Of a stretch of 40,271 nucleotides of DNA, positions 25,241 to 29,058 are shown piece by piece. Position numbers and translations under genes: made by a program. How positions within the stretch are numbered: position 1 is the first letter of the stretch; each line of letters begins with the position of its first letter. The notes below the pieces were generated by a model. It ran no database searches, had not been told where the DNA came from, and was given only the letters and a program-made list of their open reading frames with translations. Source of the stretch: Anaerolineae bacterium (lineage in GTDB: Bacteria; Chloroflexota; Anaerolineae; B4-G1; SLSP01); the NCBI GenBank assembly GCA_016931315.1, contig JAFGFB010000093.1, forward strand, positions 1 through 40,271, given 5' to 3'.

Positions 25241-25909
25241 ATGCCCAACCCACGCTATACTCTTGCCATCCTTGGCGGTACTGGCAACGAAGGTCCCGGA
25301 CTTGCACTCCGCTGGGCGCAAATCGGACACAAAGTCATCATCGGTTCACGACAGGCGGAAAAAGGCGAACGTGTTGCCGCTGAAATCAATGCGCAACTGG
25401 GTGCTGAATGGGTCACCGGCATGGCAAACGAGGACGCTGCCCGTGCCTGCGAAATCGCGGTATTGACAGTGCCCTATGCGGCACAAAACCCCTTGCTCGA
25501 GAGCCTGAAAGACCTGCTCCAGGGCAAGGTTCTGATCAATGTCACCGTAGCCATGCAACCGCCCAAAGTTGCTCGCGCTTACATCCCACCGGAAGGTTCT
25601 GCATGCGAACAAGCACAAGCACTGCTAGGACCTGACGTGAAAGTTGTAGCAGCCTTCCAAAACGTTGGGGCGCACAATCTAGAAGACCCCGCACACCCCC
25701 TGGATTGCGATGTATTAGTCTGCGGTGATAACAAAGAAGCCAAAGGTATCGCTATTGGATTGGCGGAGGATCTTGGCACCCGTGGCGTTGATGCAGGTCC
25801 CCTGGTCAATGCCAAAGTCATTGAGGGTCTGACTTCGATACTCATCGGAATCAATATCCGTTACAAGATTCCCGGCGCTGGCATTCGCATCACAGGCTTG
25901 CCCACGTAA
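25241..25909 (+). CDS. npdG: NADPH:coenzyme F420 oxidoreductase
   Basis: Hydride transfer between NADPH and coenzyme F420, setting the F420H2 supply. The Rossmann motif AILGGTGNEGPGLALRWA (8-25) and the NADP-phosphate-binding IGSRQAEKGE follow the NpdG/Fno pattern. Other conserved blocks are LTVPYAAQ, INVTVAMQPPK, VVAAFQNVGAHNL and the C-terminal YKIPGAGIRITGLP. The 222-residue length is normal. A GGAGG site is present about 11 nt before the ATG, slightly long. It is next to cofE and an F420-type oxidoreductase, which supports the assignment over a generic NAD-binding protein. Confidence 0.9.
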   Translation: MPNPRYTLAILGGTGNEGPGLALRWAQIGHKVIIGSRQAEKGERVAAEINAQLGAEWVTGMANEDAARACEIAVLTVPYAAQNPLLESLKDLLQGKVLINVTVAMQPPKVARAYIPPEGSACEQAQALLGPDVKVVAAFQNVGAHNLEDPAHPLDCDVLVCGDNKEAKGIAIGLAEDLGTRGVDAGPLVNAKVIEGLTSILIGINIRYKIPGAGIRITGLPT

Positions 25910-26015: not shown

Positions 26016-26783
26016 ATGGCTAAATCGCAAATCAACCTGATCGCTCTTCCTGGTATTCCAGATATTGTGCCAGGTGATGATCTCCCTGCGGTGATTCTGG
26101 CAGCGTTGGAACGAGCTAATCTGCGCTTACAGAGTGGCGATGTAGTGGTGGTGACACAAAAAATCGTTTCCAAAGCCGAAGGATGCGCAATCCCCCTGGA
26201 AACCATCATCCCATCGCCGAAGGCTCTGGCGCTTGCCGAGGTAACGGACAAAGACCCGCAGCTTGTCGAAGTAATCCTGCGCGAGTCGCGCGGCGTGATC
26301 CGCCAACGTGGGGGGACGCTTATTATGGAAACCCGTCATGGCTGGATTTGCGCGAATGCGGGTGTAGATCGCTCCAACGTTGGAGGCGCCCTGGGCGAAG
26401 TGGCGCTTCCCTTGCCCCCCGACCCCGATACATCAGCACAGCACATTCGCGAGGCGCTACAAAAAGCTACCGGCGCCGATATTGCAGTGCTCATCACCGA
26501 TACGCATGGGCGCCCCTGGCGTGAGGGCACAGTCAACGTCACCATTGGCAGCGCGGGGATGATGCCGCTGGCTGATCTGCGCGGCACAGTAGACCGTTAT
26601 GGCTACATCCTGCGGGCGACCATCGTCGCCCGCGCAGATGAGTTGGCAGCAGCATCCGGGCTACTGATGGGGCAGGCTGGCGAAGGCATACCTGTAGTTC
26701 TGATTCGAGGTGCGGAATATCCGCGCGGCGCCGGGCGCTCGACCCAGATGCAACGCCCACCGGAGCGCGATCTGTTTCGTTGA
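26016..26783 (+). CDS. cofE: Coenzyme F420-0:L-glutamate ligase
   Basis: Adds glutamates to F420-0 with GTP, forming the polyglutamate tail of F420. The family blocks are VVVVTQKIVSKAEG (48-61), the metal-binding HGWICANAGVDRSNV, AVLITDTHGRPWREG, and DLRGTVDRYGYILRATIVARADELAAA. The length of 255 residues corresponds to archaeal CofE and the ligase half of actinobacterial FbiB; the FbiB reductase domain is absent. It lies 106 nt after npdG with no obvious promoter between, so co-transcription is likely. No other F420 biosynthesis gene is in the window. Confidence 0.93.
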   Translation: MAKSQINLIALPGIPDIVPGDDLPAVILAALERANLRLQSGDVVVVTQKIVSKAEGCAIPLETIIPSPKALALAEVTDKDPQLVEVILRESRGVIRQRGGTLIMETRHGWICANAGVDRSNVGGALGEVALPLPPDPDTSAQHIREALQKATGADIAVLITDTHGRPWREGTVNVTIGSAGMMPLADLRGTVDRYGYILRATIVARADELAAASGLLMGQAGEGIPVVLIRGAEYPRGAGRSTQMQRPPERDLFR

Positions 26784-26837: not shown

Positions 26838-26866
26838 TTGCCACTTTAGTGGTGGATCAAGATAAT
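26838..26866 (+). promoter_or_regulatory. Promoter of the LLM/flavoprotein operon with overlapping palindrome
   Basis: TTGCCA (26838-26843), 17-base spacer, GATAAT (26861-26866). The perfect palindrome CCACTTTAGTGG (26841-26852) overlaps the -35 box and the first half of the spacer, a typical operator position. Confidence 0.6.
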
Positions 26867-26892: not shown

Positions 26893-27900
26893 ATGCCACA
26901 GACCGAAATTCCACGGGTTGCAATGTACCTTCAGGATGCCCACCCCATCCGCGACGGGATGAATTACGCACGCTATGCTGAGGAGCGCGGTTTCGAGGCA
27001 GTCTGGCAAGCAGAGAGCCGCCTGGTACGTGATGCGATTGTTCCGATGGCGGCCTTTGCTGCTGTAACCGAGCACATCAAAGTCGGCTCCGGGGTTATAA
27101 ACAACTGGACACGCAACATTGGCCTGCTTGCCGCTACCTTCCTCACGCTCGACGACCTGGCGCCCAATCGCATCATCTGCGGTATTGGCGCATGGTGGGA
27201 TCCCTTGGCGCGCAACGTCGGCATTGAACGGCGCAAGCCCTTGCTCGCCATGCGCGAGACCGTTGAGGTATTGCGCCGCCTGCTTGCCCTGGAGAATGTC
27301 ACCTTCCACGGAGAATTTCACCATGTAGATGGCATCGAGTTGGACGTAGTACACGGACGGCGTGAGCCGCGTCATGTCCCCATCATGATCGGCGCGACCG
27401 GAGATAAGATGATGGAGATGACGGGCGAGATTGCCGATGGGGCGGTTCTCAACTATTGCGTGCCGCCAGAGTACAATGATAAGGCGATGGAGTTGCTGGA
27501 CATTGGGGCACGCCGCGTAGGACGTACCGTCTATGATCTTGACCGTCCGCAGCTGGTGGTCTGTTCCGTCCACGAAGACCACGACGAAGCTATTCGTGGC
27601 GCCAAGATGCTCCTCACCCAATATCTGGCACAACAGCCACACATTGCCAAAGCCAGCGGCGTGACACAAGACGTCGTAGACAAAATCCAAAGCATCCTCG
27701 GCTGGCCCGCCACCAAGGAACAAATCAAACAAGCTATGGTTTACGTACCCGACGACCTGGTGTTGCGCATCACCGCCACCGGCACGCCAGCCGAAGTCGT
27801 CGCCAAGGTACAAGAATATATCAAACGCGGCGCCACCTGCCCCATTCTATATCCTCTGGGCGATGTAAAATTGATGATTGACACATTCGCGACCCAATAG
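26893..27900 (+). CDS. LLM-class F420-dependent oxidoreductase (Mer-like)
   Basis: Luciferase-like TIM barrel that uses F420 in place of FMN. The 335-residue protein shows the group's pattern: an N-terminal strand VAMYLQD, then [27 protein letters not shown] with the conserved [52 protein letters not shown] and a C-terminal [18 protein letters not shown] segment. It is most like methylene-tetrahydromethanopterin reductase (Mer) and related LLM proteins; the substrate is not determinable. AAGGAG lies 6 nt before the ATG. The neighbouring npdG and cofE support F420 rather than FMN use. It is 31 nt upstream of the flavoprotein gene, so the two are co-transcribed. Confidence 0.9.
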
Positions 27901-27931: not shown

Positions 27932-29005
27932 ATGGCAGATTTGACTACGCAGATCAACGGACTCACCCTTGCACATCCGGTGATGCCGGCAGCGGGACCG
28001 CCAGTACGCGATGGGAAAGCGCTACTTGCGTGTGCCGCAGGCGGAGCTGCAGCATTGGTGACCAAGACAATCTCCGTTAGGGCAGCAGAGGTTCCAAGTC
28101 CCAATATGGCAGATTTCAAAACCTACTTCCTCAACACGGAGCTCTGGTCAGAACTCCCGCCGGAACAATGGCTGGAGCAAGAATATGCCATCACACGCCA
28201 GGCAGGACTCCCTACCATTATCAGCCTGGGGTACAGCACGGAGGACATTGCCTTACTAGCGCCGCAAGTCGCCCCCTTTGCCGATGCCCTCGAGCTGAGC
28301 ACGCACTACATCAGCAGCGACCCAGGACCTATGCAGAATGCCATCCGCGCAGCCAAAGCCACCGGACTCCCTGTCTGGGTCAAGATGAGCCCCTTCCGCG
28401 AGCCACAAGCGCTGGCGTTAGCAGCGCAAGAAGCCGGCGCAGATGGTATCGTTGCCGTCAACTCCTTCGGCCCTGCCTTTGGGGTGGATATCGAACACGG
28501 GGGACGGCTATGGATGGGAGGCAAAGGCTATGGCTGGATGTCAGGACCTGCGTTGAAGCCAATCGCGTTGCGCATGGTTTACGATATCGCCAGAACCGTA
28601 GAAGTTCCCGTTATCGGTGTAGGCGGCATCACTACCGGTGCGGATGTAGTGGAGTTTCTCATGGCAGGCGCCAGCGCGGTTCAGGTATGCACCGCAGCGA
28701 TCACCAACGGGCCTCAGATCTACGGAAAGATCGCCACACAACTCGGGAAATGGCTCGATGAGCATGGGTATACTTCGGTGGAAGAAATTCGCGGGTTGGC
28801 GCTACGGCAACCCATTCCAAACATGACCCAACCGCCACGCTTGCGCGTGGACCGCTGTATCGGCTGCAATCGTTGCGTCACGAGCTGCGTCTATGAGGCG
28901 CTCTATCTGGTAGAGAAAAAAATCCATATTCACGAGCAACGCTGCGCGAAATGTGGTCTGTGCATCAGTCGTTGCCCGGTAGATGCGTTGCTCCCAAACA
29001 ATTAA
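27932..29005 (+). CDS. Dihydroorotate-dehydrogenase-like flavoprotein with C-terminal 2x[4Fe-4S]
   Basis: An FMN-binding TIM barrel (1-280) fused to a bacterial-type ferredoxin domain (about 305-352). The barrel has LVTKTIS (Lys45), the flavin region WVKMSPF (Lys151), AVNSFGPAFG and the phosphate-binding GVGGITTGADVVEFLMAGASAVQV. The two clusters use Cys309, 312, 315, 319 and Cys338, 341, 344, 348. The layout resembles PreA or class 1B DHOD. However, the usual NxSCPN active-site loop is replaced by ELSTHYIS (121-128), so the catalytic Cys is absent and the substrate may not be dihydroorotate. The start has AGGAGG 4 nt upstream. It shares an operon with the F420-type oxidoreductase. Confidence 0.82.
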   Translation: MADLTTQINGLTLAHPVMPAAGPPVRDGKALLACAAGGAAALVTKTISVRAAEVPSPNMADFKTYFLNTELWSELPPEQWLEQEYAITRQAGLPTIISLGYSTEDIALLAPQVAPFADALELSTHYISSDPGPMQNAIRAAKATGLPVWVKMSPFREPQALALAAQEAGADGIVAVNSFGPAFGVDIEHGGRLWMGGKGYGWMSGPALKPIALRMVYDIARTVEVPVIGVGGITTGADVVEFLMAGASAVQVCTAAITNGPQIYGKIATQLGKWLDEHGYTSVEEIRGLALRQPIPNMTQPPRLRVDRCIGCNRCVTSCVYEALYLVEKKIHIHEQRCAKCGLCISRCPVDALLPNN

Positions 29006-29015
29006 TCCCATTATT

Positions 29016-29058
29016 AGGCAATTATGCGGCGGCGCTTCGCGCCGCCGCATAATTGCCT
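29016..29058. terminator. Perfect bidirectional hairpin terminator
   Basis: A perfect 20-bp inverted repeat (29016-29035 and 29039-29058) with loop TTC, very GC-rich near the loop and AT-rich at the base. It lies between convergent genes, 10 nt after the flavoprotein stop and 32 nt before the zinc-ribbon stop, and probably serves both strands. Confidence 0.8.

Follow-up and report, generated by a model that had tools for sequence, protein, structure and literature searches.

An FMN barrel and a ferredoxin domain without the PyrD cysteine

The window analysed here, a stretch of 40,271 nucleotides from an Anaerolineae bacterium, contains a gene whose product resembles dihydroorotate dehydrogenase but departs from it in the active-site loop, which raises the question of what reaction the protein catalyses. 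The gene (27932..29005, + strand) encodes 357 residues. Its ATG at 27932 has an AGGAGG just ahead, at about 27922; the 375-residue form in the open reading frame list begins at an upstream TTG and overlaps the preceding LLM gene. The protein is composed of a DHO_dh barrel (PF01180, residues 4–274, 113 bits, Pfam cut-off 27) and a C-terminal 2×[4Fe-4S] ferredoxin domain (about residues 304–353; 28841..28990, + strand; matches to PF12838, PF14697 and PF00037). Pfam detects nothing else in it, neither an FAD nor an NADPH domain. The eight cysteines of the dicluster domain are invariant among 42 aligned sequences. Among solved structures, the AlphaFold model (pLDDT 93) is closest to pig dihydropyrimidine dehydrogenase (DPD), with a TM score of 0.82–0.84. 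Against the NCBIfam models the protein scores 164 bits for PyrD (cut-off 270) and 167 bits for PreA (cut-off 335).

The loop that reads NxSCPN in PyrD is replaced by ELSTHYIS (residues 121–128; 28292..28315, + strand). If the loops are aligned without gaps, starting at the glutamate common to both, Tyr126 occupies the position of the PyrD cysteine and Ser123 that of the first asparagine; MAFFT gaps the loop, so the register of Tyr126 against the cysteine is approximate. The first-pass annotation of this DNA had reported the cysteine as lost, and the replacement is genuine, being seen in orthologues and homologues. Twelve orthologues of 72–94% identity retain the loop, and in 42 homologues from several phyla Tyr126 is invariant and His125 and Ser123 are each conserved in more than 90%. 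Given this conservation, the absent cysteine reads as a signature of the family and neither as decay nor as chance or a local error.

A second family signature, LNTELWSE (residues 67–74; 28130..28153, + strand), lies in the substrate loop. Its Asn68, Glu70 and Trp72, together with Lys45, Tyr126 and Lys151, are kept without exception in the 42 sequences, and Asn177, like Ser123 and His125, exceeds 90%. Of 71 members sampled across Archaea and numerous bacterial phyla, 68 match the pattern E[LFVI]S-x-HY. The three exceptions (L208:1082-2143, L211:4040-5101 and L029:1453-2544) form their own branch of the tree, with the loop LVSYRAED or LVDYDP; the genes at L208 and L211 stand directly behind an SsnA-like amidohydrolase gene, and this branch perhaps acts on another substrate.

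Relatives of the protein lie in purine-degradation clusters

UacX of Clostridioides difficile (CdUacX) is a PF01180 protein described as a ferredoxin-type reductase of yanthine (2,8-dioxopurine) that has no FAD domain; together with EcSsnA it converts yanthine to ureidomethylhydantoin in vitro with reduced methyl viologen as the donor (Li et al., 2025; PMC12507026). Genome contigs, most of them from anonymous or metagenome-assembled genomes, were scanned for homologues of the window protein, which gave 79 loci (37–94% identity) in Chloroflexota, Bacillota, Fusobacteriota, Synergistota, Actinomycetota, Mycoplasmatota, Spirochaetota, Myxococcota, Thermoproteota and Asgard archaea. Purine-catabolism markers lie near the homologue in 38 of these loci, and in 21, ranging from Chloroflexota to Desulfurococcales, SsnA is directly upstream on the same strand within 1 kb. 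Homologues of roughly 40–60% identity are found directly behind SsnA or within uric-acid-degradation clusters; Cetobacterium (46% identity) has the full C. difficile-type cluster, YgeX-YgeY-UacY-SsnA-permease-UacX homologue-XdhD-HyuA. These placements mark the protein as related to UacX. In the phylogeny that the first-pass annotation had proposed as a check, the window protein does not group with PyrD but with the SsnA-linked proteins (support 99/95), and PreA falls outside them.

The same study stated that Chloroflexota are without UacX/YgfK and inferred a 'luciferase family' F420-dependent yanthine reductase for them instead (PMC12507026). The stated absence is contradicted: in a number of Chloroflexota (L153, L154, L162–L164, L168 and L177) the gene directly behind SsnA is a UacX relative, and L168 has YgfK as well. 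The SsnA-linked Chloroflexota proteins are 55–60% identical to the window protein.

At L168:6373-13504 the gene order is SsnA, a UacX without the ferredoxin domain, YgfK (41% identity to that of E. coli) and a second UacX-like gene with the ferredoxin domain; since all three stand together there, the presence of several purine reductases in a cluster does not by itself imply redundancy. Candidatus Chloroploca (L169:8001-10429, L170:8001-10445, L171:8001-10439) has a barrel-only UacX in tandem with a ferredoxin-domain UacX-like gene, between YgeY/YgeW and XdhD, and the pair is possibly a heteromer.

The weakest point of the UacX assignment is that the window subclade has left the SsnA neighbourhood. 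No SsnA or XDH gene adjoins the protein's own orthologues (about 68–94% identity) in the neighbourhoods examined, and LLM is the sole recurrent pathway neighbour of the subclade's UacX. In the window's genome SsnA is not within 15 genes of the gene but on another contig (G000:C319); in the homologues L153, L154, L162–L164, L167, L168, L177 and others it does lie in that range. For this reason the protein is classed here as a UacX relative with a putative function.

The LLM gene lies in uricolytic operons of other Anaerolineae

Upstream of the gene and on the same strand lie npdG (25241..25909, +; TIGR01915, 220.5 bits, cut-off 149.8), for an NADPH:F420 oxidoreductase that supplies F420H2; cofE (26016..26783, +; TIGR01916, 274.7 bits, cut-off 180.65), for F420-0:gamma-glutamyl ligase; and the gene for an LLM F420-type reductase (26893..27900, +; PF00296, 212 bits). 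The LLM stop at 27900 is 31 nt before the start of the UacX-type gene, in agreement with the spacing and the npdG and cofE neighbours originally noted. A 20-bp hairpin between convergent genes (29016..29058; −40.3 kcal/mol, z = −8.1 against shuffles) closes the operon and is a probable terminator; it is absent from the terminator-scan list and its U tract is weak. A predicted promoter-like TTGCCA-17-GATAAT at 26838–26866, ahead of the LLM gene, could drive LLM and UacX jointly; the promoter scan of the region gave 2 hits against 2.5 expected, which is chance level.

Of the 396 genomes of the class, 247 carry LLM, nearly always in a single copy, with best matches of 73–100% identity. XDH, SsnA, YgeY or YgeW genes stand beside it in 13 of 20 sampled neighbourhoods. 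At two loci (L285:4709-10697 and L292:8706-14685) the F420 synthesis genes npdG, cofE, cofD and cofC are located inside the uricolytic operon itself, in the order SsnA-npdG-cofE-(ligase-like)-cofD-cofC-LLM-FAD subunit-XdhD followed by more XDH subunits, where cofC, cofD and the FAD subunit were named by reading the sequences by eye. CofE holds the same operon position in L277, L279 and L280 as in L285 and L292, and the uricolytic operon of other families has npdG after SsnA. The npdG-cofE-LLM series of the window is thus part of an SsnA-npdG-cofE-cofD-cofC-LLM-XdhD operon. The window LLM has the PF00296 domain and is linked to F420 and uricolytic genes. Since it lies in uricolytic operons of other Anaerolineae, it very probably corresponds to the F420-dependent yanthine reductase that Li et al. 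inferred for Chloroflexota. A Mer-like methylene-H4folate/H4MPT reductase was also considered for LLM and dropped on gene context; the NCBIfam scores are 162 and 159 bits, with cut-offs of 276 and 349.

LLM and UacX alternate between genomes

The distribution of the two genes was compared across the class, with UacX called at E ≤ 1e-45. Among 312 SsnA-bearing genomes, 216 have LLM only, 42 UacX only, 12 both and 42 neither (odds ratio 0.056). Counted per genus, 123 of 222 genera overall have LLM, compared with 11 of the 47 that have UacX (odds ratio 0.17, p 6e-7); both tests correct only partly for shared ancestry. The GTDB family of the window likewise includes genomes with LLM alone (G001, G002, G003, G017) and with UacX alone (G005, G006, G015, G022). 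This pattern points to LLM and UacX as reductases that stand in for each other at a single step of the pathway, rather than as partners in a complex. There are exceptions to the rule, as 42 SsnA-bearing genomes have neither gene at the thresholds used.

Eight genomes of the family (G000, G008–G013 and G023) have both genes, and in all eight they are adjacent. Elsewhere in the class, G165, G258, G271 and G284 have both on different contigs; among the class genomes with coordinates, the adjacency is confined to the window's family. The co-occurrence survey suggested at the outset therefore has a divided outcome: the adjacency is consistent wherever the family has both genes, but most genomes of the class carry one alone. 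The association of the gene with an F420-type LLM reductase is real, and the electron-transfer module from LLM to FMN that had been built on it is left unsupported, as most genomes have LLM without UacX or UacX without LLM.

Pathway and pyrimidine genes of the genome

The remaining pathway genes are present in the window's genome, G000, scattered over contigs. XdhD is on C239 (59% identity to the XdhD next to LLM in L285), SsnA on C319 (497 bits, cut-off 455.5) and HyuA on C118 (409 bits, cut-off 393). C54 carries YgeY (450 bits, cut-off 321.5), two carbamoyltransferases, carbamate kinase and, as the only counterpart of YgeX, an unassigned PLP enzyme. The carbamoyltransferases stand in tandem beside YgeY (L115:13279-15337), and one scores as an aspartate carbamoyltransferase (242 bits, cut-off 237); an automatic pyrB name would mislead, because the gene context on C54 is purine breakdown.

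Canonical pyrD is absent from G000. The genome has two further DHO_dh open reading frames, both without the cysteine loop. One is of the PRK07565 kind and adjoins a pyruvate:ferredoxin-oxidoreductase-like gene. The other, at L003:1006-2711 (G000:C223), is a PyrD-like barrel with the loop IELGLDEH, beside PyrK-like and dihydrolipoamide-dehydrogenase-like genes; similar pairs are found in G001, G010 and G013, and also in genomes that have the canonical pyr operon.

In the GTDB family, the genomes G002, G003, G014, G017 and G021 have a canonical pyrB-pyrFE-pyrD(NISCPN)-pyrK operon; G012 and G018 have portions of it. Canonical pyrD and pyrE (orotate phosphoribosyltransferase) are absent from the genomes with the window protein, except G012, which has a window-type protein and a pyrD-pyrK pair together. 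Both genes are missing from G000 and its relatives G005, G008–G011, G013, G015, G022 and G023. PyrE was not found even in G015, which is listed as 100% complete. De novo pyrimidine synthesis has apparently been lost from G000 and these relatives, whereas sister genera retain the full pyr operon.

Alternative readings

A divergent dihydroorotate dehydrogenase standing in for PyrD would account for the DHO_dh family membership and for the general lack of canonical pyrD in the genomes carrying the gene. In G015, where the window-type protein is the sole clear DHO_dh protein, such a replacement was considered and dropped, with pyrE and canonical pyrB missing too. Since pyrE and canonical pyrB are also absent from the genomes that carry the gene, the window protein cannot simply be the missing enzyme, and G012 has pyrD-pyrK in addition to it; with the cysteine and the first asparagine lost, a score far under the PyrD cut-off and no pyr context, the idea is scarcely credible, and the original view that the gene does not serve pyrimidine synthesis holds. 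A dihydropyrimidine dehydrogenase of the PreA/PydAc kind, reducing uracil or thymine with ferredoxin, would fit the best structural match and the PreA score, and PydAc has the same architecture (PMC7332683). That score is nevertheless well short of its cut-off, the catalytic cysteine is absent, the signature is another one and the homologues travel with SsnA and XdhD, which makes this reading highly improbable.

The remaining alternatives concern the gene's partner and its substrate. A single complex linking F420H2, FMN and 4Fe-4S would explain the 31-nt spacing and the adjacency of LLM and the DHOD-like gene in the family. F420-dependent LLM enzymes, though, hand hydride straight to the substrate and are not known to have Fe-S centres; as most genomes of the class carry either gene without the other, such a complex is very unlikely. 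Cooperation of LLM and UacX, in a dual-donor step (F420H2 and ferredoxin) or on successive purine intermediates, is also quite unlikely; if true, the shared operon would represent a new form of uricolytic pathway. It is likewise unlikely, if somewhat less so, that a UacX-fold enzyme has been repurposed in the window subclade for another N-heterocycle, such as another purine or a hydantoin-like intermediate. The subclade lies outside the SsnA cluster, L133–L149 and L160 have no adjoining purine genes other than LLM/F420, and UacX-like paralogues coexist with YgfK (L168) or with each other (Chloroploca). Repurposing is nonetheless hard to reconcile with signature residues that are all unchanged, with the identity to the SsnA-linked Chloroflexota proteins, and with the retention of SsnA, XdhD and HyuA in the genome.

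A proposed reaction and its relation to known systems

The window protein is thus probably a UacX-type reductase of anaerobic reductive purine (uric acid) degradation. Its substrate had first been left blank, and synteny, signature and the characterised relative now point to a purine ring, that of yanthine. Starting from the domain content, signature, family membership, operon, pathway genes and alternation observed in sequences and genomes, we infer the substrate, the electron donor, the proton donor and the action of both reductases on the same compound as follows. XdhD would convert urate to yanthine. Electrons, with reduced ferredoxin (or a different low-potential donor) as their probable source, would enter the two C-terminal [4Fe-4S] clusters and pass to the FMN of the barrel, which would deliver a hydride to yanthine. 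The Ser-x-His-Tyr loop would replace the cysteine acid of PyrD/PydA, with His125 or Tyr126 the likely proton donor. The dearomatised product would be opened by SsnA, which would pull the reaction, and then be processed by HyuA, a carbamoyltransferase, YgeY and a lyase. LLM, fed by NpdG/CofE, would most likely catalyse the same reduction with F420H2, and a single operon of the lineage would encode two alternative reductases, each specific for its donor.

This assignment offers a testable substrate for a widespread family whose members now carry the annotation dihydroorotate dehydrogenase or 4Fe-4S protein. It extends UacX relatives to Chloroflexota and Archaea, for the former contrary to the published survey. 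With two normally interchangeable reductases in one operon, the choice of donor in anaerobic purine breakdown, F420H2 or ferredoxin, becomes open to direct test.

The protein shares with class 1B PyrD (TIGR01037) the barrel fold, the FMN lysines and equivalents of Asn68 and Asn177, but lacks NxSCPN, has an extra ferredoxin domain and has no pyr genes around it. PydAc of Clostridium chromiireducens (PMC7332683) and E. coli PreA have in common with it the FMN barrel plus ferredoxin domain, electron entry through Fe-S clusters and reduction of a pyrimidine-type ring; in comparison with PreA, the differences lie in the cysteine loop and in further signature residues. The second known yanthine reductase, YgfK of E. 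coli, has the motifs PAAGP, NTE and LSTxH and the same proposed reaction in common with the window protein, with FNTEWSTE as the counterpart of LNTELWSE; it differs in its length of about 1030 residues, its FAD/NADH domains and the cysteine kept in its loop (LSTMHGCPP). CdUacX was compared by its description and gene context: both proteins have a PF01180 FMN barrel and ferredoxin-type Fe-S clusters without an FAD domain, and homologues of the window protein lie in SsnA/XdhD/HyuA/YgeY clusters, whereas the window gene itself is in an npdG-cofE-LLM operon and not beside SsnA. The window LLM resembles the published Chloroflexota F420 reductase in the genes that surround it in other families (SsnA, npdG, cofE/D/C and XdhD), and departs from the published picture in having a UacX-type gene immediately downstream.
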